64,000 nucleotides of DNA from positions 62,001 to 126,000 of the forward strand of contig JBCCCR010000005.1 of NCBI GenBank assembly GCA_039033415.1, in the 5' to 3' direction. The notes under the pieces were generated by a model that saw nothing but the letters and a program-made list of their open reading frames with translations, did no database searches and was not told the origin of the DNA. Position numbers and translations under genes: made by a program. Position 1 is the first letter of the stretch; each line of letters begins with the position of its first letter. This document shows, in pieces, positions 2,005 through 54,206 of the stretch. This stretch comes from Pseudomonadota bacterium. GTDB taxonomy: Bacteria > Pseudomonadota > Gammaproteobacteria > Xanthomonadales > SZUA-38.

Positions 2005-3369
2005 ATGCGCCTGACCCGGAATCGATCCAAGACCGCCGACACCCCCCGCCGCGCTCTAACTCCCTGGCCCGTCATACTGCTGCTGGCTCTACCCGGAGCC
2101 ACGTGTCTCGCCGGCTCCACTTACGAACCGGGACAGCCAGCCACGATGGATCTGGCCGAAGTGGCCCAGGGGCTGGGCGACAACGGCCAGATTTTTCCTA
2201 CAGACCTCGTGGCGTTCCCTGACGGCTCCGGCCGCCTGCTGATCAGCACACTGGGAGGCAGCATACGGTTAATCGACGGCGCGCTAACGGCCACGCCCTA
2301 TATCGATACGGTCAGCGACGACACCATCAACGCGGAAAACGGCAACGCTTCGTTTGGCCTTACCACCGTGGCCTTTCACCCCGATTTTGCCAACGTGGGA
2401 ACGTCGGGGTTCGGTCGCCTGTACACCGTTGAACCCGAGGTCACCCGGGCCAATCCACCGCCGGATTTTCCTGGTATTCGCAATGATTTTGTCGGCGGCA
2501 ACAATCCGGCCCACGATCGGGTGCTCTATGAGTATCGGGCCGACTCGCTCGGCGCTAACGCGTTTGCCGGACTAAAGCGGGAGGTGCTGCGAATCCATGA
2601 GCATCGACGCGGGCACGACGTGAACGACCTGGCGTTTGACGCCGGCGGCTACCTGTACATCGCCGTCGGCGACACGGTGATCAGCGGCAGCGCCCAGGAG
2701 CTGGACAACGTGTTCGGCACCATTATGAGAATCGATCCGCTCGCGCCGGAGCAAACGCCAGGCAGCACCGATCCGGTGAGCGACAACGGCGCGTATCGCG
2801 TACCCGCCGACAATCCGTTTTTGAGCACCGCCGACGCGGTACCAGAGATTTTTGCGTACGGACTGCGCAACCCGTTTCGCATTTTTGTCGACCCGCTCAC
2901 CGACGAACTGTGGGTCAGCAGCAACGGGGCAAGCTCACGCGAGTCGGTCTATCAGGTCAGCCTTGGCGACAACCTCGGCTGGCCGTTCTTTGAAGGAACG
3001 CGACAGAACAATCCGCCGCCAGCGGGGTTTAGCTACGTGCCTCCAGTCTTTGAATACACCCACAGTCTCGGGCAGTCCGTGACCGGTGTTGTTGTCTATA
3101 GCGGCAGCAACCTGTCGGGGCTCACGGGCCGGGTGGTCTTCAGCGACTTTCTCGGGAGCGGCTCGGGGGGCGCCCGCGTGTTTTACGGTGACCCCGAAAC
3201 GGGTGTCTATTCCGACCTTGAGGCCAGCGGCCCGGTTGAGCTGCCCTCAACGCTTGTCTCCATCGGCCTGGACCAGGCGGGGGAGATGTACTTCCTCGGC
3301 GGGGACGGTCGCGTCCTGGGCACCAACCCGGACGGCCTCCTGTTTCGAAATGGCTTCGAAAGCAATTAA
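2005..3369 (+). CDS. Secreted PQQ-dependent sugar dehydrogenase-like protein (GSDH family)
   Basis: 454 residues. A signal peptide (hydrophobic WPVILLLALPGATCLAG, about residues 22-38) is followed by a six-bladed beta-propeller of the glucose/sorbosone dehydrogenase family. Typical motifs are RGHDVNDLAFDAGGYLYIAV, YGLRNPFRIFVDP and LGWPFFEG. Family members oxidise aldose sugars in the periplasm with PQQ, but this is inferred and no PQQ genes are in view. The protein ends with the tail LFRNGFESN, shared in form with three other secreted proteins in this window. The gene stands alone between rarD (divergent) and a cluster of hairpins. The start is the ATG after a weak GAGGTAAGCC ribosome site. 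Confidence 0.82.
   Translation: MRLTRNRSKTADTPRRALTPWPVILLLALPGATCLAGSTYEPGQPATMDLAEVAQGLGDNGQIFPTDLVAFPDGSGRLLISTLGGSIRLIDGALTATPYIDTVSDDTINAENGNASFGLTTVAFHPDFANVGTSGFGRLYTVEPEVTRANPPPDFPGIRNDFVGGNNPAHDRVLYEYRADSLGANAFAGLKREVLRIHEHRRGHDVNDLAFDAGGYLYIAVGDTVISGSAQELDNVFGTIMRIDPLAPEQTPGSTDPVSDNGAYRVPADNPFLSTADAVPEIFAYGLRNPFRIFVDPLTDELWVSSNGASSRESVYQVSLGDNLGWPFFEGTRQNNPPPAGFSYVPPVFEYTHSLGQSVTGVVVYSGSNLSGLTGRVVFSDFLGSGSGGARVFYGDPETGVYSDLEASGPVELPSTLVSIGLDQAGEMYFLGGDGRVLGTNPDGLLFRNGFESN
3340..3366 (+). other. C-terminal NGFE tail of the sugar dehydrogenase-like protein
   Basis: The last nine residues read LFRNGFESN. The pattern hydrophobic-F-x-(D/N)-G-F-E at the extreme C-terminus recurs at 34779-34802, 50536-50568 and 54183-54203 on otherwise unrelated secreted proteins. 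No transmembrane helix or basic cluster follows, so it is not a PEP-CTERM or GlyGly-CTERM type signal. Confidence 0.7.
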
Positions 3370-10937: not shown

Positions 10938-12458
10938 ATGGCCGCCATTTCCGAGTCCGACTTCATCCAGAGTGTTGCTGACGCCCTGCAGCACATTTCC
11001 TACTACCACCCCAAAGACTACATCCAGAACCTGGCCAAAGCTTACGAGCTGGAGGAGTCGACCCCCGCCAAAGACGCCATGGCCCAGATTCTGATCAACT
11101 CTCGACTCTGCGCCGAGGGGAAGCGTCCGATCTGCCAGGACACCGGGATTGTGACCGTGTTCGTGAAAATCGGCATGGATGTTCGGTGGGACGCCAGCAG
11201 CACGGTCACGGAGATGGTGAACGAGGGCGTGCGACGAGCGTACCTGCACCCAGACAACAAGCTGCGCGCCTCAATTCTCGCGGACCCGGCCGGCGCGCGC
11301 AAAAACACCGGAGACAATACCCCAGCTGTCGTCCATATCGACATGGTCCCGGGCGACACGGTCGACGTAACGGTGGCGGCCAAAGGCGGCGGCTCAGAAA
11401 ACAAAGCCAAGTTTGTGATGCTCAACCCGTCTGACGATATCGTCGAGTGGGTCGTGAAAACGGTGCCAACGATGGGTGCCGGCTGGTGCCCTCCGGGCAT
11501 GCTCGGGATCGGGATCGGCGGCACCGCTGAAAAGGCCATGGTGCTGGCCAAAGAGTCGTTGATGGATCCGATTGATATGGCGGAGCTAAAAGCTCGCGGG
11601 CCCAACAATCGTATCGAAGAACTCCGGATCGAGATCTTCGATAAGGTGAACGCGCTCGGGATTGGCGCGCAGGGTCTCGGCGGGCTGACCACGGTTCTCG
11701 ACGTCAAGATCTTTGACTATCCCACCCATGCCGCTTCCAAGCCGGTGGCGATGATCCCAAACTGCGCAGCCACCCGTCACGCCCACTTTGTGCTGGACGG
11801 CAGCGGGCCGGCCAGCCTGGCCATACCCAGCCTGGAAGACTGGCCGGAGGTCACCTGGGAAGCGGGCGCCACCGCCCGGCGTGTGAACCTGGACGAGCTC
11901 ACCCGGGAAGCTGTGGCCGATTTCAAGCCGGGCGAGACGCTGCTGCTCAGCGGCACGCTGCTGACCGGGCGTGACGCGGCCCACAAGCGACTGATCGACC
12001 TGCTGGACCGCGGCGAGCCGCTGCCGGTGGATTTCACGAACAAGATGATCTACTACGTCGGCCCGGTAGACGCGGTGCGGGACGAAGCCGTCGGCCCGGC
12101 AGGACCGACCACCGCCACCCGCATGGACAAGTTCACCGACCAGCTGCTCGCCAGCACGGGGCTGATCGGCATGGTGGGCAAGGCCGAGCGAGGCCCGGCG
12201 ACCATCGAGTCGATATCCCGCCACGGCGCCGTGTACCTGATTGCGGTGGGTGGCGCGGCTTACCTCGTATCGAAGGCCATCCGTAAATCCACCGTTCTCG
12301 CGTTTCCGGAGCTGGGGATGGAGGCCATTCACGAGTTTGTCGTGGAGGACATGCCGGTGATGGTGGCCGTGGACACCCAGGGCGATTCGGTTCACACCAG
12401 CGGGCCCAGCAAGTGGCGATCCAAGATCGGTGACATTCCCGTGCTGGTGGAAAGCTAA
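10938..12458 (+). CDS. fumA: Fumarate hydratase, class I (iron-sulfur)
   Basis: 506 residues, the full two-domain form. It hydrates fumarate to malate in the TCA cycle and holds an oxygen-sensitive 4Fe-4S cluster. The three cluster Cys residues are in ICQDTG, GWCPPGMLG and PNCAATRH. The C-terminal domain shows LSGTLLTGRDAAHKR and GPTTATRMDKF, the conserved substrate region. The ATG at 10938 is followed by the expected helical N-terminus. A fumarase and a fumarate-producing fumarylacetoacetase in the same segment is probably coincidental. No class II fumC is seen here. Confidence 0.95.
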   Translation: MAAISESDFIQSVADALQHISYYHPKDYIQNLAKAYELEESTPAKDAMAQILINSRLCAEGKRPICQDTGIVTVFVKIGMDVRWDASSTVTEMVNEGVRRAYLHPDNKLRASILADPAGARKNTGDNTPAVVHIDMVPGDTVDVTVAAKGGGSENKAKFVMLNPSDDIVEWVVKTVPTMGAGWCPPGMLGIGIGGTAEKAMVLAKESLMDPIDMAELKARGPNNRIEELRIEIFDKVNALGIGAQGLGGLTTVLDVKIFDYPTHAASKPVAMIPNCAATRHAHFVLDGSGPASLAIPSLEDWPEVTWEAGATARRVNLDELTREAVADFKPGETLLLSGTLLTGRDAAHKRLIDLLDRGEPLPVDFTNKMIYYVGPVDAVRDEAVGPAGPTTATRMDKFTDQLLASTGLIGMVGKAERGPATIESISRHGAVYLIAVGGAAYLVSKAIRKSTVLAFPELGMEAIHEFVVEDMPVMVAVDTQGDSVHTSGPSKWRSKIGDIPVLVES

Positions 12459-26532: not shown

Positions 26533-27927
26533 TCAGTCGACCGGCCAGTTCTCCAGCGCGTCGACAAACGCAGCCAGCCACGCATTGGTTTGGAAGGCGT
26601 CGAGCGCGCGGTGGTCGATAGAAAGCGTGACGTAGCAGCTCGGCACAATCTGGACCTGGTCCTCGCCGTCCACCTCACGCACGCGAACCCGCTTCTCCAG
26701 CTTTCCGACGCCCAGGATGGCCACCTCAGGTTGATTGATGATGATCGGAGCCGCGAGCAGGCTGCCCGACACCCCGTGGTTGGAAATCGTAAAGGTGCCG
26801 CCGCGCAGGTCGTCCTGCGTTAGGCCGCCGGTGCGGGCCCGCTCGGTTTTTTCGCCGAGGTCGGCCGCAATTTCGGCCAGCGTGCGGTCCTGAACCCGCT
26901 TAATCACGGGCACGATCAGCCCCTGTTCACCGAGCGCAGTGCCGACACCGATATTGACGTCGTCAAAGAGCTGAAGGTGATCGGAATGGAATCGGCTGTT
27001 GACCTGGGGCACCGCCCGCATGGCGGCGGCCGCCGCCGCCACAAAATACGCGGTGTAGGTGAGCTTGATACCCTGCTCAGCGAGCGCCGCCTTGTGAGCC
27101 TGACGATGTGCGGCCACCGCACTCATGTCGGCCTCGAACAAGCTCGTCACGTGCGGCGACTTCTTGATCGAGTCCATCATGTTGCGGGCAATCGCCCTTC
27201 GCATGGCGCTGTGCGGCACCCGTCGCCCTTCCGGCACGCCGGCCTCCGGCGCACGCTGCTCCAGCCAGGAGAGCAGGTTGTCGCGGGTGACGCGGCCGCC
27301 TTCGCCGGTACCCGGAATCATCTTCAGGCTGTGAATGGCGTACTGCTCCATCAGCCGGCGAACAGCCGGGCTGATCCGGTCGGCGCCCGGCGCCTCGGCA
27401 TCAGCGGGCGGAGTCGGCGTGGGCGCGTCGACGACGGCGAGATGTGCGAGAAGCTGGCCGGGGCGGAGCTCCTGTCCAGCCTCAGCGGCCAGGCTGTGAA
27501 TCGCGCCGCCATCAGACGCCACAATCTCGAGCATCACCTTGTCGGTTTCCACCTCCGCCAATGGCTGACCGGCGGACACCTGCTGACCGGGCTCCACCAG
27601 CCAGCGGCCCAGCGTTGCGGCGGTCCCCTCATTGTCTTCGGTGACAAACAGCACCTCGGTCAGCGAGGCGTCAGCGGCACCCGCCACCGCCTCTTTCGTA
27701 AGCCGACCGAGCACCGTCCCGGGCTCCAGCTCCTGATCGAGCTCCACCAGCTGCTCTGCGAGAAAGCCCGCGGCAGGTGCGGCGATTTCCACCGTAACCT
27801 TATCGGTTTCCAGCTCGGCAACCGGCTGATCGGACTGGACCGCGTCACCGACCGATACCAGCCACCGATTCAGGCGCGCCGTTGTGCCTTCGGTCTGCTC
27901 GGCAAAGACGATGTCAAGCTCACTCAT
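26533..27927 (-). CDS. Branched-chain 2-oxoacid dehydrogenase E2, two lipoyl domains
   Basis: 464 residues. Two lipoyl domains with lysines Lys43 (ETDKVTVEI) and Lys130 (ETDKVMLEI) precede a subunit-binding domain (about 184-222, ISPAVRRLMEQYAI). The acetyltransferase-type catalytic domain starts near 235. It transfers acyl groups from lipoate to CoA. The usual DHRxxDG motif reads DHRALDAF, with Ala in place of Gly. The ATG overlaps the end of E1 by 4 bases. E3 (lipoamide dehydrogenase) is not adjacent and must come from elsewhere. Confidence 0.92.
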   Translation of the reverse strand: MSELDIVFAEQTEGTTARLNRWLVSVGDAVQSDQPVAELETDKVTVEIAAPAAGFLAEQLVELDQELEPGTVLGRLTKEAVAGAADASLTEVLFVTEDNEGTAATLGRWLVEPGQQVSAGQPLAEVETDKVMLEIVASDGGAIHSLAAEAGQELRPGQLLAHLAVVDAPTPTPPADAEAPGADRISPAVRRLMEQYAIHSLKMIPGTGEGGRVTRDNLLSWLEQRAPEAGVPEGRRVPHSAMRRAIARNMMDSIKKSPHVTSLFEADMSAVAAHRQAHKAALAEQGIKLTYTAYFVAAAAAAMRAVPQVNSRFHSDHLQLFDDVNIGVGTALGEQGLIVPVIKRVQDRTLAEIAADLGEKTERARTGGLTQDDLRGGTFTISNHGVSGSLLAAPIIINQPEVAILGVGKLEKRVRVREVDGEDQVQIVPSCYVTLSIDHRALDAFQTNAWLAAFVDALENWPVD

Positions 27928-30035
27928 AGCGCCAGCAGACGGGCGACGGCCCGCTCGATTTCGTCTTCGCGAGGCACCGCGGCGTTGAGCAGGCCGAGGT
28001 TATGGGGGTTGGGAATGTCCGGCATGGTCAGGCGGCGTACCGGGGCGTCGAGCGACCAAAACAGCTCGTCGGCGAGTACGGCAGCCACCTCGGCGCCAAA
28101 GCCGGCGGTGAGATTATCCTCGTGAACAATAAGACAGCGGCTGGTCTTCTTGACCGACTCGAGCACCCCTTCCTTATCCCAGGGGCTGATCGTTCGCAGG
28201 TCCAGTACCTCGACCGACCCTTCGCGTTTTCGGGCAACCGTTTCGCAACGCTCCACCATGGCGCCCCAGGTGACGATGGTCAGTTTGTCACCCTCAACCA
28301 CCGTCGCTGCTTTGCCGAACGCGAGCACGTAGTCATCACCCGGATACGGGCGGCGCGACCAGGCGTTGTCGTAGAGATGGCGGTGTTCAAAAAACATCGT
28401 GGGGTTATCGCCACGCAGCGCGGCGCGCAGCAGACCCACCGCGTCCTCAGCATGCGAAGGCATCGCCACCTGCCAGCCGACCTTGTGTGCCCATTCCACC
28501 TCGTCACACATGGAGTGCCAGGGATCCCCCCGCCGCGCAAAGCCGCCGGGTACCCGCACAACCATCGGGCAAGCAAACCGATTGGCCGTGCGCCAGCGCA
28601 TGGTGCCCGCATCGGTGATCTGTTCAGCCGCGGGCTCAGCGTACTTGCGGAACTGGATCTCCGGTACCGGCATCAAGCCGGCCACCGCCATGCCGACCGA
28701 TCGGCCGATAATGCCTTCTTCCGACAGGCTGGTGTCGAACACGCGGCCGTCGCCGTGAGACTCTGCAAGCCCGAGCGTTGCTCCGTGCACACCGCCTTTG
28801 GGACCCACGTCCTCGCCAAAAACCAGCACGCGAGGGTTGCTTTTGAGTTCCGCGTCCAGCGTCCGGCGAATGGCCGTAATCAGGTTGATCCGCTGCCCGC
28901 TGGGCTGCGGGGTGGTGCTGGACTCAGGAAAACGATGTTGGTCAGCCGCCAGGCCACCCATCATTGGCAGCTCGATACCGCCGTCCGTCTTTTTCTCCGC
29001 CATCACGTACCGGCGCAGCTTGCCGGTATCGGGCTCAGGTCGGGCCTGAGCCGCTTCGAGCGCAGAACGGACTTCCTGTTCAACTTCCTGCTCCAGCTCC
29101 GCCCAGCCGGCAGCATTGAGCGAGCCCTGCTCTTCTAACCAGTCTTTAAGCTTCGGCAGCGGGTCTCGAGTCTGCTCTTCGGCGATAAACGCCTCGGTCT
29201 TGTAGGTCTGCGTATCCTGAAACGTGTGCCCACAGAGGCGTGGCACCTTCAGCCGAAGCAGACAGGCGCCACGACCATCGCGGCAGTGTGCAACCGCCTC
29301 GTCGATCAGGCCGGGTGTCACTATCGGGTCGGTACCGTCGCCGTCGAGAATCTTGAGTTCGGGCCAGGCAGCGAGGTTAGCGACATGATCACCGCCCGGG
29401 GTCTGGAGCGGCGCCGGCACCGAGATCCCGTAGCCGTTGTCCTCCATGTAAAAGAGCATCGGCAGCTTGAGCGTAGTGGCGATGTTCAGCGCCGACCAAA
29501 ACCCGTTGGTGGAAGCCGAAGCGTCGCCGCCGGTTGCCACCGCGATCGCGCCGCGCCACTGCGCCTGCTTCAGCTCGTCTGTGCGATAGGCAATCGCCTG
29601 CGCCCAGCCCACCGCCGGCGTGTATTGAGCGCCCACGCCGCCACTCATGGGCAGCAGCGTTGCGCCGCGCCCGAGGCGTCCTGCTCCCGGCAGATTGCAG
29701 ACCACACCGATGTCGCGCCCGTCGCTGTAGCCGCCGCTGCGCGCCAGCGGCGCGGCGAAGGCGTCCTCGGACGTGAGCCCCAGCGCCAGCGCAAGGGGGC
29801 GCGACCGGTAGTAGCCGGTGGCGCCGTCGTGCGTATGGGTCAGTCGGCTCCCTAGCAGAATCTGCGCAAAATCATGGCCGCGGGCAGAAAATTGATTGAA
29901 GACCTGACGAGCCGGCACCAGCTCCGTCTCTTCGATATGATCGATGAGTCGACTGGTGAGCAGCAGACGTGAGATCTGCAGCCAGTCGACGGCAGTGGGA
30001 TCCGGGATGGTGTCTAGGGCGGCCTGTTGGTCCAT
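27924..30035 (-). CDS. Branched-chain 2-oxoacid dehydrogenase E1, fused alpha and beta
   Basis: 703 residues. The alpha half (about 1-340) binds thiamine diphosphate (GGDASASTNG to EDNGYGIS) and the beta half (about 390-703) starts INLITAIRRTLDAEL and carries VLVFGEDVGPKGGVHG. Usually these are separate genes; here they form one chain with an E-rich linker. The ATG at 30033-30035 follows a strong GGAGGT site; the upstream ATG at 30059 is not needed. It decarboxylates branched-chain 2-oxoacids (or related) onto lipoyl-E2. The PaaX-type regulator lies opposite. Confidence 0.9.
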   Translation of the reverse strand: MDQQAALDTIPDPTAVDWLQISRLLLTSRLIDHIEETELVPARQVFNQFSARGHDFAQILLGSRLTHTHDGATGYYRSRPLALALGLTSEDAFAAPLARSGGYSDGRDIGVVCNLPGAGRLGRGATLLPMSGGVGAQYTPAVGWAQAIAYRTDELKQAQWRGAIAVATGGDASASTNGFWSALNIATTLKLPMLFYMEDNGYGISVPAPLQTPGGDHVANLAAWPELKILDGDGTDPIVTPGLIDEAVAHCRDGRGACLLRLKVPRLCGHTFQDTQTYKTEAFIAEEQTRDPLPKLKDWLEEQGSLNAAGWAELEQEVEQEVRSALEAAQARPEPDTGKLRRYVMAEKKTDGGIELPMMGGLAADQHRFPESSTTPQPSGQRINLITAIRRTLDAELKSNPRVLVFGEDVGPKGGVHGATLGLAESHGDGRVFDTSLSEEGIIGRSVGMAVAGLMPVPEIQFRKYAEPAAEQITDAGTMRWRTANRFACPMVVRVPGGFARRGDPWHSMCDEVEWAHKVGWQVAMPSHAEDAVGLLRAALRGDNPTMFFEHRHLYDNAWSRRPYPGDDYVLAFGKAATVVEGDKLTIVTWGAMVERCETVARKREGSVEVLDLRTISPWDKEGVLESVKKTSRCLIVHEDNLTAGFGAEVAAVLADELFWSLDAPVRRLTMPDIPNPHNLGLLNAAVPREDEIERAVARLLAL

Positions 30036-30142
30036 CAGTACCTCCAGCACGTGCGCCAATTCAGCTTGTCGATTGGCGGCGCGCAGCGGGTTTACGCTAC
30101 ATTTCAGATCAGACCATAATGGCTCCCATGGCCAACCTGATA

Positions 30143-32153: not shown

Positions 32154-34805
32154 ATGACGCTTCAACTACTCGTGCGCACGTGTCTACGGGCCGCCCTGTT
32201 TACCGGGCTGCTCGCCTTTGCGGTTGCGACGGGCCAGGCGGGTCAGAACAGCTCGCCTCGGATCCTGGCGTTCAGCAAGACCGAAGGCTTCCGTCATGGC
32301 TCAATCAGCAGCGCGCTGACCGCCATCGAAAACCTAGGCGCCCAACATGGTTTCGCCGTGGACGCCACCGAAGACGCGACGGCTTTCACCGACGCCAACC
32401 TGGCGAACTACGCCGCCGTGGCCTTTGTGCTCACCAGCGGCAACGTGCTCAACGACTCACAGCAGGAGGCTTTTGAGCGCTACATCCAGGCGGGCGGCGG
32501 CTATGTGGGCGTGCACTCGGCCAGCGATACCGAGTACCAGTGGCCATGGTACGGAGGCCTGGTGGGCGCCTATTTTCAGCGACACCCGGCGCAGCAGACG
32601 GCGACTCTGACCGTCGAAGACCCGGACCATCCGTCTACCCGTAACCTGCCTACCACCCTCAGCCGTTTCGACGAATGGTACGACTTTCGAACCAATCCCC
32701 GCGGCGCGGTCAACGTACTCATGACCATCGATGAATCGACTTACAACGGCGGTCAGATGGGCCCGGATCACCCGCTGGTTTGGTTTCACGAGTATGACGG
32801 CGGCCGTTCCTGGTACACCGCCATGGGCCACACGAGCGCCAGCTATACCGAACCTGAGTTCGTTTCGCATTTGCTCGGCGGCATCCAATATGCCGCCAAT
32901 CTTGAGGGTCCGCTGACCGTCGACGCCAGCGGTCAATGGTTTGTCCGCCAGAACTCGGGGCGGCCGTTTTTTATGGCGGGCGCCGGCGGACCGGAGGGTT
33001 TTCTTTATGAGACTGACGCCCGAAAACAGGAGATTGTGGATCAGCTCGTGGCCAGCGGCGCCAACGCGCTTTATATGCACTCCATCCGGTCATTCGAAGG
33101 CGACGGCTATGATTTTGAGGATCCGTTCAACGTCAACAATGACCCCACCAGCGGGATCGCTCCTGGCGTGTTCGACAACTGGCGAAGCTTTCTAACGCAG
33201 CTCGATCAGGCCGAGATCGTCACGTGGTTCCACGTGATCGACGACACGGCGCGACCGTGGGGCTGTGACGTGCCGCTCAGCCAGGATGCTGTCGACTACA
33301 TCGAAGCGCTCGTCAACGCCTTTAAGGACCTAGACCACCTGGTGTGGCTGGCGGGCGAGGAGTACCTCATGGGACGCTGCACCACCGGGGAGGATAATGA
33401 TCTGATGTCCGCCATCGCCGCGGAAATCCGGCGGCACGACCCGGTGCACCCGATCGGCGTCCATCACAACAACGGCCAGGCCATGCAGTTTGGCACGGAT
33501 CCCAACGTCAACGTGTTTGCCCAGCAGATCTGCGGAAACGCCAGCACCCGCAGCCCCGCCGGCGTCCACGGCGAGGCTGAGCAGGGCAGCTGGGTGTACG
33601 TGATGTCGGAGTGCCACCCCTGGCACCTGAACCTCCTCGGCAATGGGGATCGCACCCCCATCCGGCAATCAAACTGGGGCAGCGCCATGGGCGGGGGCTA
33701 CGTGCTCCTCTACAACGCCTACGAGTGCGCGGAAGCCGGCCGCCTGTGCAGCCGCGACTCGAATGGCAATCCCACGAGCGCTGTTGACCCACACGACCCC
33801 ACGCCCGAGATGCTGGCCGATCTTCGCCGGCTGCGCGAGTTTATGGAGGCATCAGGCTTCAGCACGCTGACACCACGAGACGACCTGGCGGCGGCGGACA
33901 CGCTTTGGGTGCTGGCCAACACGACAACTCAGAATTACGTGCTGTACGACCTCGACTCGCCGGGTTCGATGGGCGTCAGCGGCCTCGCCGTCGGAGGCTA
34001 CAGCCTGACCTGGTTTGACCCGAGCAGCGGAGCTTCCCTGACCCAGACGCGAAATGCCAGCGACGCGCCGTTTGCTGTGCCTGCGCAGTTCGGTACCGAG
34101 GTCGCGCTGCATCTGGCGCCCTCCGGGACGCTCGGCAACCGGGCTCCGCTGGCCAGTCCGGACAGCTACAGCACCGACGTAGACCAAACGCTCATCGTTG
34201 CAGCGCCCGGTATCCTGGACAATGACAGCGACCTCGACGGAGACGCGCTGACGGCGGTGCTCGTGGACGACCCGGCGAGCGGCACCCTGGATCTGTCGGA
34301 CAACGGCGGCTTCAGCTTCACGCCGGCAGCCGGCTTCAGCGGCGCCGTCAGCTTCACCTACGAAGCATCGGACGGCCTGCTGAACTCCCCAACTACCAGC
34401 GTCAGCATCAGCGTTGGCCAGCAGCCCATCACGCTGGAGCTGATCGACGCCGCCGGTGACGTCGACGCCGGCCCGCTATCCAACGGCTCAAACCTGGCGC
34501 TCGCCACGCTTGGCTTCTCGGAGTTTTCGGTAAGAACCGAACGGCTGCCGCTCGGCACTGCGAGCGTCCGTTTCACGCTGACTGGCCCGGTCTCCGAGAG
34601 CCGAACCGAAAACGTTGCGCCCTACACGTTGTTCGGCGACAGCAATGGCGACTTTGCCGGAGCGGTCATCCTGACGGGAAGCTACGCGCTGCGGGTCGAG
34701 GCTTTCGCCAGCGCCAACGCCAGCGGCCAGGTACTGGCCGATGTCACGGTGAATTTTTCGGTCAGCGATCTCAGCACGCTCATCTTTTCAGACGGCTTTG
34801 AATAG
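32154..34805 (+). CDS. Large secreted ThuA-domain, cadherin-like protein
   Basis: 883 residues. Signal peptide near 10-29 (ALFTGLLAFAVATGQA), then a ThuA domain (about 35-255; RILAFSKTEGFRHGSI and GGGYVGVHSASDTEYQWPW). A glycoside-hydrolase-like TIM-barrel region follows (about 265-610; WLAGEEYLM, HHNNGQAM). Then come a beta domain, a cadherin-like tandem domain (about 660-755; ILDNDSDLDGDALTAVLVDD) and a last beta domain. It ends LIFSDGFE. ThuA proteins act on sugars, but the activity here is unknown. Start: ATG 32154, after a TTG at 32151. Confidence 0.82.
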   Translation: MTLQLLVRTCLRAALFTGLLAFAVATGQAGQNSSPRILAFSKTEGFRHGSISSALTAIENLGAQHGFAVDATEDATAFTDANLANYAAVAFVLTSGNVLNDSQQEAFERYIQAGGGYVGVHSASDTEYQWPWYGGLVGAYFQRHPAQQTATLTVEDPDHPSTRNLPTTLSRFDEWYDFRTNPRGAVNVLMTIDESTYNGGQMGPDHPLVWFHEYDGGRSWYTAMGHTSASYTEPEFVSHLLGGIQYAANLEGPLTVDASGQWFVRQNSGRPFFMAGAGGPEGFLYETDARKQEIVDQLVASGANALYMHSIRSFEGDGYDFEDPFNVNNDPTSGIAPGVFDNWRSFLTQLDQAEIVTWFHVIDDTARPWGCDVPLSQDAVDYIEALVNAFKDLDHLVWLAGEEYLMGRCTTGEDNDLMSAIAAEIRRHDPVHPIGVHHNNGQAMQFGTDPNVNVFAQQICGNASTRSPAGVHGEAEQGSWVYVMSECHPWHLNLLGNGDRTPIRQSNWGSAMGGGYVLLYNAYECAEAGRLCSRDSNGNPTSAVDPHDPTPEMLADLRRLREFMEASGFSTLTPRDDLAAADTLWVLANTTTQNYVLYDLDSPGSMGVSGLAVGGYSLTWFDPSSGASLTQTRNASDAPFAVPAQFGTEVALHLAPSGTLGNRAPLASPDSYSTDVDQTLIVAAPGILDNDSDLDGDALTAVLVDDPASGTLDLSDNGGFSFTPAAGFSGAVSFTYEASDGLLNSPTTSVSISVGQQPITLELIDAAGDVDAGPLSNGSNLALATLGFSEFSVRTERLPLGTASVRFTLTGPVSESRTENVAPYTLFGDSNGDFAGAVILTGSYALRVEAFASANASGQVLADVTVNFSVSDLSTLIFSDGFE
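34779..34802 (+). other. C-terminal DGFE tail of the ThuA protein
   Basis: The last eight residues are LIFSDGFE, directly before the stop. Same motif as at 3340-3366, 50536-50568 and 54183-54203. Confidence 0.75.
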
Positions 34806-50532: not shown

Positions 50533-52494
50533 TCAGAATAGCCGTTCTTCAAACCCGTCGGTAAACGCCTGTTCATTTGAGGAAACCGCGAAATTCACGA
50601 CGGTGTCTCCAAACTCCATTCCCATGGCGGGAACGGGCGGCGCGATCCAGGTCTCAGACAGCAGGCTGACCACCACTGCCCCAGGGTTCACCACAAACTG
50701 ATAGGCGCCGACGCTGTTTGATATGGCAGCAACTTGACCGTCTTGAAGCACAATGACACCAGGGACGGGGTTGCCGTTTCCCTGTTCGGTGATCGTCCCC
50801 CGAATCCTTGCCACACCGGGAGCCGGAGGCGGATAGGCCGTGGCAGTGCAGGTTCGATTGCGGCTAAACGCGTCGGTTTTATATCGCTCCTGAAACTGAT
50901 AGTCGACGGGGTCTGAAGCCACAATGGCAACGCTCGGGCAGTTCCTAATCCTGACCAAGCCTGGCTCATGAGAAAATTCCAGCGGAGCGCTGACACCACA
51001 TGAACCCAGCGTCTGATTAGGCTGCGCCCGGGGGTGGGTGAAGATTGCAGGCCCAAAGAACTCTACGATTGGTTGGAAACGCGGGTCGGCGTCAGGCGAA
51101 GACAACAGATACCCATCTACGCGGGTCTCATCATCGGCATCGAGAAAGATCCAGTCCACATCACTATCACTGTGAAAGGTCCGATCAACACCGTCGGGGA
51201 ATTCGACGGGCCGCGCGCTGCTGGCAAGGTTGTCATTTTCGAAGCGGTCCCGTGACAGCGGCGCCAACAGATTGAGTCTCTCTACCTGGGATGGTTCCAG
51301 GGCAGAATCAAAGAGCTGCAGCCGGACCACCGACAGGTCGAGATTCTGAGAATTGGCCGTGACTTGATCATCCCGGAAAAAGTGCAGCTGCCCATCGCCG
51401 GAGATCAACCCATCGCCCGGGGCCTGGAGTGAAAACTCCAGCTCTCCATCAACGTAAACCCGAATCTCGTCAGATAAATCTCCGAAATTCGGCTCGCGCT
51501 CGGAGGCCCGTGAGATCACGATCTGATGATAACCGGCAGCAGCCAGTGCCAAGCTGTTGGCTCCAGCAGCCGCGCTATCACCGAGAAAGTTGATCGAGGG
51601 GCCAGTCGCCCCACCGGCCACGTAAATGCCAGCATCGGATGTGAGATTGGAAAAATCCAGCAGCTTGGCCTGCTCTCCCTCAGCCACTGAGCCGAAATTG
51701 ATGGTCATGACCACGGTGTACTCTGCCGCAAACAGTAATGATCCAACGTCGAGTCGCAGGCCCGTTCCTGCATCCACGCTCAGCGCCGGGCGACTCTCAT
51801 CGTTTACGGTATCCAGCGAAAAAATGTTGACGCCCAGATCGATCAGCGCCGGCGCGCTCGCCAGGCTGCTGCTCAGCGATTCTTGAAAACGATAGTCTGC
51901 TACCGGAGTGGGCCCGTATTGAGCGAAGCAAGCCTGAAAACCAATATCGAAGCCGCCCTCTACGATGGGGTCTGCTCCAGGAGAAGGGCAGCCGGGCGAA
52001 AAAAGATCAGCGCCGCCCGCGTATTCGTTTGCGGCGTTTCTGATTGCCGCACACCGAGGCAAAATGGCGTAAACCCGGTGATCAAAGGGAACAGTCACGC
52101 CGTTGGAGCCACGACTGTATTCATAGCAGTTGGGCACCGGGTCAAGCTCCAGGCACGCTTCGAGCAGGAATTGCGGCGCCAAATCGAAGACCGCCAGCGC
52201 GTCGGCGCCGGTAGCGGCCTGGCTGGTTGTCGGCAGCTGGTCGTAAATGTAGATTTCCGCAGGTGGATCGACCTCAGCCGAATCAAAATCGATGACCAGA
52301 CGCTGAAGCGTCACCTGACCGTTGAACCCCCGCGGTGGCCCAACCGACTCATTACCCCGAACTGATGGCGTAAAGCTTTGACCCTGAACGAAGAACGCGG
52401 AGTTAGGCGTCTGATTGCCGATTTCGTGGGCAGTCAACGAACCGGCCGTAACCATCGCAGCACAAAGCAGGAGTCTTTTTAGGCGGAGATACAT
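50533..52494 (-). CDS. Secreted multidomain protein with LamG-like domain and DGFE tail
   Basis: 653 residues. Signal peptide (LLLCAAMVTAGSLTA). N-terminal beta domain with several Cys, then a concanavalin/LamG-like domain (about 200-395; VADYRFQESLSSS, DEIRVYVDGELEF). A repeat of the pre-peptidase type follows (RDRFENDNLASSARPVEF), then a carboxypeptidase-regulatory-like beta domain (RIRGTITEQGNGNPVPGVIV). Ends AFTDGFEERLF. Role unknown; probably surface or secreted. ATG at 52494; a TTG two codons upstream is possible. Confidence 0.75.
   Translation of the reverse strand: MYLRLKRLLLCAAMVTAGSLTAHEIGNQTPNSAFFVQGQSFTPSVRGNESVGPPRGFNGQVTLQRLVIDFDSAEVDPPAEIYIYDQLPTTSQAATGADALAVFDLAPQFLLEACLELDPVPNCYEYSRGSNGVTVPFDHRVYAILPRCAAIRNAANEYAGGADLFSPGCPSPGADPIVEGGFDIGFQACFAQYGPTPVADYRFQESLSSSLASAPALIDLGVNIFSLDTVNDESRPALSVDAGTGLRLDVGSLLFAAEYTVVMTINFGSVAEGEQAKLLDFSNLTSDAGIYVAGGATGPSINFLGDSAAAGANSLALAAAGYHQIVISRASEREPNFGDLSDEIRVYVDGELEFSLQAPGDGLISGDGQLHFFRDDQVTANSQNLDLSVVRLQLFDSALEPSQVERLNLLAPLSRDRFENDNLASSARPVEFPDGVDRTFHSDSDVDWIFLDADDETRVDGYLLSSPDADPRFQPIVEFFGPAIFTHPRAQPNQTLGSCGVSAPLEFSHEPGLVRIRNCPSVAIVASDPVDYQFQERYKTDAFSRNRTCTATAYPPPAPGVARIRGTITEQGNGNPVPGVIVLQDGQVAAISNSVGAYQFVVNPGAVVVSLLSETWIAPPVPAMGMEFGDTVVNFAVSSNEQAFTDGFEERLF
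50536..50568 (-). other. C-terminal DGFE tail of the LamG protein
   Basis: Ends AFTDGFEERLF. Same motif as at 3340-3366, 34779-34802 and 54183-54203, here followed by four residues. Confidence 0.7.
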
Positions 52495-52757
52495 GTTCAA
52501 TTTGCCGGTTCGCTGCAGAGGCGTGCCGCCAGGCTATTCAACCTCTTTTCGTCAAATTACCCCATCAGACGCAGCAAAGGCGCGGTTAATGAGCCAGATT
52601 CTGCTGAAATGCTCGCCTGGCCACTGAACGGTTTGCTGGAAATCAGCATTCTGCGAGGCAACACAAATTTGCCGCCGCAAGCTAGAGCGCATTGTGGGGT
52701 GTGCGGGTTTCTCGTTCAATGCCGTTGTTATGCATAAAGCTTTAGTAGAGTAACCCC

Positions 52758-54206
52758 ATGACAAGCCATACCGGACTGGATTTCAAACAACGAAGTGGAT
52801 TCTTCAGAGGACTACTTTGCATCCATCTGCTGGCGATCGCGTTCCCGCTTAGCAGCAGCGCCCAGATTGTGCTGCCCACCTATCTGCAGGTGGTGGTTGG
52901 GACAACATCGGACGGCGCCAACGCGACGGGCTGTTCTTTGCGCCAGGCTCTGGCGACGGTTGCAACCGATGCCAACGTGGGGGATTGCCAGCGCCAACGG
53001 CTGGCGGGGGATCGGCCCAATCAGATCCTCTTTGACGCCGCCATCGTGCCCGGCCAGATCATTTTGACGCAGCAGCTAGATGTCACCGCGGATACGGCGA
53101 TCAACGGACCGGGCCAAGAGGTATTCCAGATCTCTGGCGTAGGAGCCCATCGCATCTTCCAGGTCAGCACCGCGGAGCTTGTCGTGCGCAATATCACCCT
53201 GACGCAGGGCAGCGCCATAACCGACGGCGGCGCTATTCTCAGCGATGGACCGGTGACCGTTTCCAACAGCCGAATTATCAACTCCAGGGCCGCGCCCATC
53301 GGAGGTTTCGGGGGTGCCATTGCGATTGAGAGCAGTGGCTCCCTTTTTCTGGAGTCATCCGAAATCAGGGGTTGCTCGGCCGATTTTGGTGGAGGCGGGC
53401 TCTCGCTGCGCGGTCCGTTTGAAATTTCAGACAGCATCATCTCGAACAATGACGCGCAAAACGGCGGCGCAATTTTCGCGACTGCAGACGGAACAATTTC
53501 TGGTAGTCAGATTGCCGACAACAACACCAGCCTCGGATCGAGTATCCAGGTGGCCGTGGCGAACGTACTCGTTGAATCCAGCACGCTAACCGCTGGCAGC
53601 GGGACCAGTGAACAGCTAATCAGCGGGGGAGCTGACAGCGTGCTGCGGGTATCTGGGTCGCACCTGCAGGACCTGTCGGGCGCAACAACCGGCGTGTTGG
53701 TCCTCGATGGGCCCGCTTTTATCAACCTTGAGCTGACCATCGAGAATTCCACCATCACGGGCAGCCGGGGCATCGCCGCACAAAACTTCCTGGCGCTTTT
53801 GAACAGCACGATCACCGTCACCGACACACCGGCACTGCAGTTTTTCTCGGGAGCCACAGCTCGCGGTCGTATCGCCAACTCCATTGTCGTGAGTGATGGC
53901 GCCGATGACTGTGTCACAAACGGCGCGACTCTGGTGGAAAACAGCCACAACCTTTACACCGATGGGGACTGCACCGACGTCCAGGAGAATCTGATTTTCG
54001 CTGACCCCACGCTTGGGCCGCTCGGCGACAACGGTGGCCCCACCCTCACCCGAATGCCGCTACCCGGTAGTCCCGCCATTGACACAGGCAACCTCTTTTG
54101 TCCCGCTACCGATCAGCGACGGTTCACGCGAGCCGACGGACTGTGCGACATCGGCGCCGTTGAGGCAGGCGCTACCGATACGCTGTTTGCCAATGGATTC
54201 GAGTAG
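52758..54206 (+). CDS. Secreted right-handed beta-helix protein with CSLREA-like start and NGFE tail
   Basis: 482 residues. Signal peptide (LLCIHLLAIAFPLSSSAQ). A CSLREA-type domain (GANATGCSLRQALATV) is followed by a right-handed parallel beta-helix with repeats such as GGAILSDGPVTVSNSRI and GGAIFATADGTISGSQI. The family-typical ending is GDNGGPTLTRMPLPGSPAID and CDIGAVEAG. The tail is TLFANGFE. Likely surface adhesin or glycan-binding, unproven. It is divergent from the LamG protein gene across 263 bases. Confidence 0.82.
   Translation: MTSHTGLDFKQRSGFFRGLLCIHLLAIAFPLSSSAQIVLPTYLQVVVGTTSDGANATGCSLRQALATVATDANVGDCQRQRLAGDRPNQILFDAAIVPGQIILTQQLDVTADTAINGPGQEVFQISGVGAHRIFQVSTAELVVRNITLTQGSAITDGGAILSDGPVTVSNSRIINSRAAPIGGFGGAIAIESSGSLFLESSEIRGCSADFGGGGLSLRGPFEISDSIISNNDAQNGGAIFATADGTISGSQIADNNTSLGSSIQVAVANVLVESSTLTAGSGTSEQLISGGADSVLRVSGSHLQDLSGATTGVLVLDGPAFINLELTIENSTITGSRGIAAQNFLALLNSTITVTDTPALQFFSGATARGRIANSIVVSDGADDCVTNGATLVENSHNLYTDGDCTDVQENLIFADPTLGPLGDNGGPTLTRMPLPGSPAIDTGNLFCPATDQRRFTRADGLCDIGAVEAGATDTLFANGFE
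54183..54203 (+). other. C-terminal NGFE tail of the beta-helix protein
   Basis: Ends LFANGFE just before the stop codon. Fourth copy of the motif in the window. Confidence 0.75.

Follow-up and report, generated by a model that had tools for sequence, protein, structure and literature searches.

The 64,000-nucleotide stretch analysed here (the window) corresponds to positions 62001-126000 of contig C5 (JBCCCR010000005.1) in the 6.4-Mb genome of a Pseudomonadota bacterium (assembly GCA_039033415.1; G000, the source genome). It encodes four exported proteins that share a C-terminal peptide tag of the form F-x-[DN]-G-F-E (Table 1). All four carriers pass a strict signal-peptide rule, and domain scans assign them to different folds: a GSDH propeller, a ThuA/apiosidase-like/cadherin protein, a LamG-like protein whose domain match is weak (E = 0.0016, under Pfam's cut-off), and a beta-helix with a choice-of-anchor Q domain. 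The ThuA, apiosidase-like and cadherin domains form an unusual domain order for one exported protein. An initial annotation of this DNA had pointed out the four tails, the unrelated folds of their carriers and the signal peptides, and these are present as described, with the LamG label being weak. The window contains four matches to the codon pattern TTYNNNRAYGGNTTYGAR, versus 0.03 expected, and none of 100 shuffles reaches four. In the beta-helix protein, the domain immediately upstream of the tag belongs to a family that NCBIfam named for preceding varied sorting signals. Residues 459-482 of this protein, tag included, have a predicted local distance difference test (pLDDT) score below 50 in the AlphaFold2 model, which is compatible with, and weakly suggestive of, an exposed flexible end.

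Table 1. Tag-bearing genes of the window and the tags they encode.
Feature	Position	Strand	Remarks
Tag-bearing GSDH-family propeller (PF07995; glucose/sorbosone dehydrogenase-like), exported	2005..3369	+	Signal peptide
Tag F-R-N-G-F-E, then S-N-stop	3343..3360	+	C-terminus of 2005-3369; full tail LLFRNGFESN
Tag-bearing ThuA (PF06283) + apiosidase-like (PF13204) + cadherin/Big_9 protein	32154..34805	+	Signal peptide; alternative start 32151
Tag F-S-D-G-F-E	34785..34802	+	Final six residues of the ThuA protein; tail LIFSDGFE
Tag-bearing LamG-like protein (PF13385, weak)	50533..52500	-	Signal peptide
Tag F-T-D-G-F-E, then E-R-L-F-stop	50548..50565	-	Tail AFTDGFEERLF
Tag-bearing right-handed beta-helix protein	52758..54206	+	Signal peptide
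Choice-of-anchor Q domain (NF041518)	54003..54167	+	Residues 416-470 of the beta-helix protein; immediately upstream of tag
Tag F-A-N-G-F-E	54186..54203	+	Final six residues of the beta-helix protein; tail LFANGFE

The initial observation is right, and the phenomenon is much larger in scale than these four proteins. The source genome contains 99 sites that match F-x-[DN]-G-F-E, as compared with a single site for the reversed pattern used as a control. The motif lies within 13 residues of the end of the open reading frame (ORF) at 81 of these sites, 29 of which read exactly -GFE-stop, while the rest mostly continue for 1-6 residues beyond the Glu. The 81 tails yield the consensus [DE]-x-[LVI]-F-[ASR]-[DN]-G-F-E, with L, V or I preceding the Phe in 78, and their logo contains neither a hydrophobic helix nor a basic cluster, as had been noted for the tails of the window. 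Variants such as FxxSFE, FxSGFE and LxDGFE also exist, as do FxDGFQ, FxDGYE and FxDRFE in relatives, so that the tag can be written generally as [LIV]-F-x-[DNS]-[GSR]-F-[EQ]. One of the 99 sites (L097) looks like background. Among the 18-mers that encode the motif, 97 of 99 are distinct, synonymous codons are used freely, including all four for Gly, and relatives that are AT-rich use correspondingly AT-rich codons for this peptide. Because the DNA varies freely, selection acts on the peptide and not on a DNA element.

Carriers were examined in stretches around the motif sites, which amount to ∼1 Mb of the genome. A strict signal peptide is found in 69 of 78 complete C-terminal carriers, and cytoplasmic proteins do not bear the tag at equal frequency. 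The rule used here scores 1.6% of internal pseudo-N-termini and none of seven cytosolic controls as positive; it was adopted, together with the internal controls, in place of an earlier gene-caller-based comparison that called half of all genes positive and was not strict enough. Only five of the 69 also have a lipobox, and a lipoprotein reading of the carriers was rejected on that count. The choice-of-anchor Q domain is present in 15 of 80 scanned carriers, and the other families include beta-helices, PD40 propellers, cadherin/Big_9, VesB-like Ig domains, GSDH, Kelch and FG-GAP. In family f9, long choice-of-anchor Q proteins (L301 in G050, L311 in G029) end in an apparent IPTL-CTERM helix, which suggests a second anchoring system alongside the tag in that family.

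The C-terminal position described for the window holds for most sites of the genome, but not for all of them. Five copies occupy the mature N-terminus, close behind the signal peptide, and four of these are computed to begin at mature residue 11-15. About 12 more lie deeper inside exported proteins, downstream or at domain junctions, and relatives repeat the same three positions (C-terminal, mature N-terminal and domain junction). Three DUF1800-like proteins, assigned by eye (L065, L070 and L088, on contigs C23, C30 and C1), carry the tag directly after the signal peptide as a consistent habit of their subfamily. With 29 tags ending at Glu and others located at N-termini, processing by cutting at the tag and attaching the product is impossible for those proteins.

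The expansion of the tag is confined to one order, Lysobacterales. A survey of 276 genomes from the class finds 0-8 motif sites in each genome that lies outside the order, while counts within it range from 0 to >100 per genome and are patchy among families and genera. Sites in low-count genomes are mostly random internal matches, and we therefore rejected the idea that such genomes hold minimal tag systems. One genus (g11) is tag-poor by the first pattern and uses F-x-D-R-F-E, with 33 of 37 sampled copies at C-termini.

The initial annotation had proposed phylogenetic profiling for a co-occurring processing gene. A sharp partner does emerge, but it is a clade of type II secretion systems (T2SSs) rather than a processing protease. 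A search for the secretin GspD reveals that tag-rich genomes carry two secretins, belonging to systems that we term T2SS-A and T2SS-B. The latter is Xps-like and occurs in nearly all genomes, tagged or untagged; it also owns the pseudopilin genes that adjoin its gspD. The T2SS-A secretin is nearest to EpsD/XcpQ-type secretins, and its best PDB matches are T2SS GspD chains. Its gene resides in a gspC-gspD-gspE-gspF operon, often upstream of ftsE-ftsX. In the source genome the operon lies on contig C8 (L243:7901-13515), between gyrB and ftsE-ftsX, and no pseudopilin genes were found near it on that contig.

We compared the two distributions in 249 Lysobacterales genomes with a profile built from 18 T2SS-A secretins (alignment A2) and with the wider pattern F-x-[DN]-[GR]-F-E. 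The median motif count is 38 in the 82 T2SS-A-positive genomes and 1-2 in the 167 others. At a threshold of 12 motifs, T2SS-A-positive genomes divide 75 above to 7 below and T2SS-A-negative genomes 7 to 160 (odds ratio 245, p = 1e-46). If GspC-A or secretin fragments are counted as well, the division becomes 78 to 8 versus 4 to 159; put differently, the 82 genomes with at least 12 motifs include 75 with GspD-A and 78 with GspD-A, GspC-A or a fragment. The association also holds when genera are permuted within families (p ≤ 5e-5). Genus g11, with its DRFE form of the tag, likewise has T2SS-A.

All T2SS-A secretins fall into one clade of the secretin tree (support 100/98) that mostly follows host families. 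This largely vertical pattern indicates that T2SS-A is ancestral in the order and was lost repeatedly. At least four losses can be counted (the greater part of families f2, f12 and f7, together with G020, which lacks any T2SS), and the tags are gone each time. Conversely, the f2 genomes that keep T2SS-A have 71 (G358) and 98 (G463) motifs, most sampled sites being real C-terminal tags, and the f12 genera g14, g23, g266 and g278 keep both. The wider pattern gives 12-17 sites, as pattern counts only, in each of three f7 genomes without T2SS-A (G334, G344 and G364). We rejected T2SSs in general as the partner of the tag, because the Xps-like GspD is nearly universal and the T2SS-A clade alone fits. 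Secretins that resemble T2SS-A but fall outside its clade (G501, G024, G457, G475, G060 and G421) show no association with tags. A gene-neighbour search for the partner found a tagged gene in just 2 of 40 T2SS-A loci, and adjacency is thus uninformative.

Assembly gaps account for several tagged genomes that appear to be secretin-less: GspC-A is present in G390, G405 and G415, and a secretin fragment in G385. Other observations weigh against a functional tie between tag and T2SS-A. G047, a metagenome-assembled genome that is 90% complete, is tagged, and neither GspD-A nor GspC-A was found in it. T2SS-A occurs without tags in G483, in G349, in diverged form in G456, and in the reduced genomes G356 and G335. 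Families of cargo proteins, choice-of-anchor Q for example, are themselves rare in T2SS-A-negative genomes, and the co-loss may therefore reflect in part the disappearance of proteins and not of their tags. The absence of a motif excess outside the order implies that canonical T2SSs in general do not need the tag. Finally, co-occurrence is not recognition, and the true partner could be some gene outside the screen that disappeared along with T2SS-A. The T2SS-A loci of G483 and G349 (L315 and L316), genomes without detectable tags, are gspC-D-E-F operons; the genus of G483 otherwise lacks T2SS-A, which suggests transfer of its operon.

Some homologues are shared between T2SS-A-positive and -negative genomes. 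In the T2SS-A-negative G032, a choice-of-anchor Q protein stops right after the domain (...PDIGATESRFRAE), whereas its counterparts in positive genomes run on into the tag. Nucleases of the ExeM/NucH type occur in both groups. None of the 19 readable sequences from T2SS-A-negative genomes has the tag, and many end in SDHDPLLLGFDL; tagged versions are found in the T2SS-A-positive source genome, in G014 and G008, in a relative of G036 and in G006 (a second copy, by coordinates). When one best match is taken per genome without bias, the result is less favorable to a link with T2SS-A, since the tag is seen in 2 of 7 positive versus 0 of 19 negative genomes (p = 0.06). Homologues that lack the tag within a tagged species, which the initial annotation had named as refuting its proposal, do exist, ExeM/NucH copies among them. 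We judge them not to be fatal because the cell has two T2SSs.

The suggestion that these tails serve secretion or sorting is supported by the enrichment on proteins with signal peptides, the lack of any match to CTERM models, the placement of the tag after choice-of-anchor Q domains and the sharp phylogenetic profile. We consider it probable that the element is a short linear sorting tag that commits folded exported proteins to T2SS-A, with the PDZ domain of GspC-A as its likeliest reader. The signal peptide would take carriers across the inner membrane. In the periplasm, a tag exposed at either end of the mature protein or between its domains would then be bound as a peptide, most likely by the GspC-A PDZ domain, and binding would commit the folded carrier to T2SS-A. 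The T2SSC (HR) domain is found in 25 of 25 GspC-A proteins and a PDZ domain in at least 23 of 25; the nearest solved folds of this C-terminal PDZ domain are those of EpsC (2i4s, 2i6v) and PulC (5hj1). The EpsC and OutC PDZ domains of Vibrio and Dickeya bind regions of substrates and select among them (PMC12369372, PMC7949064), and by extension we propose that T2SS-A binds the tag as a peptide ligand, with GspC-PDZ as the most likely site. The link to T2SS-A itself comes from co-occurrence, from which we infer direct recognition, transport, reading by the PDZ domain and release to the exterior. More tentatively, and with appreciably less confidence, the tag may be the first linear, portable and position-tolerant T2SS label, borne by ∼20-110 proteins per genome, read by GspC-PDZ in an ancestral Lysobacterales T2SS and recoded from DGFE to DRFE in one lineage.

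The main competing explanation, which we regard as unlikely yet worth serious consideration, is that the tag retains or anchors proteins at the surface after export. T2SS-A would then recognize its substrates by structural determinants, the tag would dock to a receptor or matrix, and it would disappear along with T2SS-A since nothing then arrives at the surface. Many carriers are indeed typical surface proteins (beta-helix, cadherin, FG-GAP and Kelch), the choice-of-anchor Q and D domains stand in front of anchoring signals in other settings, and GlyGly-CTERM proteins such as VesB are exported by a T2SS and then bound to the surface (PMC12369372). However, the tag includes no membrane-anchoring segment, and the 29 copies that end at Glu offer no leaving group for attachment. 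No receptor gene was found, and the link to one secretin clade requires no additional partner. If the tag is an anchor instead, it would keep proteins at a Gram-negative surface in a novel manner, with neither lipid nor membrane helix.

It is rather improbable that the tag and T2SS-A are merely traits of a shared lifestyle that were lost together without functional contact, the tag being a structural end cap or a modification site. The scarcity of cargo families in T2SS-A-negative genomes and the untagged, T2SS-A-positive G483 and G349 count in favor of this explanation. It accounts poorly for at least four independent co-losses, for the permutation result within families, and for homologues that persist in T2SS-A-negative genomes without the tag. 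Moreover, the same peptide on unrelated folds and at either end is ill-suited to be an intramolecular cap, and AlphaFold2 leaves it at low confidence and not packed. It is very improbable that the tag belongs to a novel CTERM-like system served by its own processing protease or sortase: the many-to-one distribution resembles that of PEP-CTERM, GlyGly-CTERM and MYXO-CTERM, but there is no hydrophobic helix, no basic cluster and, in 29 cases, nothing after the motif, and cutting and attaching at mature N-termini would discard the protein. Chance, or a DNA-level repeat overlapping gene ends, has just the shortness of the motif in its favor and can practically be dismissed given the 99 sites versus 1 for the control, the class-wide background of 0-8 per genome and the 97 of 99 distinct DNA sequences, the repeat being rejected on the synonymous variation among sites.

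Two other features of the window stand out. A 711-residue ORF (27924-30059, minus strand) is an apparent fusion of the E1 alpha and beta subunits of a 2-oxoacid dehydrogenase, and the E2 gene (26533-27927) adjoins it. Horizontal transfer is suggested for a class I fumarase (10938-12458, plus strand), whose best matches, one near relative apart, come from distant taxa, among them Pseudohongiella and Chitinimonas.

We found no description of the tag in the literature on C-terminal sorting motifs in Xanthomonadales or on DGFE/NGFE, and NCBIfam CTERM signal models give no match among 80 carriers and 32 tail pieces; one tail piece weakly matches the NCBIfam model for rhombotarget A proteins. The initial annotation likewise gave no named family for these tails. 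The tag is not a CTERM signal, because the defining helix and basic cluster are absent from the 81 tails. Like GlyGly-CTERM, the substrate tag of rhombosortase, it marks the C-termini of many unrelated exported proteins, some of which are T2SS substrates in the GlyGly-CTERM case. GlyGly-CTERM consists of a transmembrane helix and a basic tail, is cut by a rhomboid protease and was not tied to any T2SS subclass (PMC3237569), whereas the tag described here has neither helix nor basic tail, may also stand at the N-terminus and goes with a single T2SS clade. PEP-CTERM/exosortase and MYXO-CTERM/myxosortase are likewise many-to-one systems of C-terminal tags on exported proteins (PMC1569441, PMC11980579). 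Those tags depend on a hydrophobic helix and a membrane protease, in contrast to the helix-free tag of Lysobacterales. The C-terminal domains of the type IX secretion system of Bacteroidota also provide a C-terminal address on folded exported proteins and span ∼70-100 residues; the present tag measures 6-8 residues, occurs at either end and is found in Gammaproteobacteria.

The closest comparison is with T2SSs themselves, for which the choice of substrates is a long-standing open question. T2SS-A has an EpsD/XcpQ-type secretin, a GspC with an HR domain and an operon with GspE and GspF, as canonical T2SSs do, and the carriers resemble T2SS substrates in having a signal peptide (69 of 78) and a T2SS in the genome. 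On either the sorting or the anchoring explanation, the element provides an annotation for thousands of proteins at present labelled hypothetical and supplies a tag for display or secretion. Determinants described so far include the Fn3 loops of PelI/Pel3 and the Ig-fold of VesB, which are read by the OutC/EpsC PDZ domain, and the tag carriers are similarly exported by signal peptides and tied to a T2SS with an EpsC-like GspC PDZ domain. Disordered peptide segments are thought to be read, and no common linear T2SS signal is known (PMC7949064, PMC12369372). Known determinants are structural, composite and substrate-specific, while here a single hexapeptide is shared by ∼100 otherwise unrelated proteins in each genome and, if it does act as a T2SS signal, would be the first linear one.

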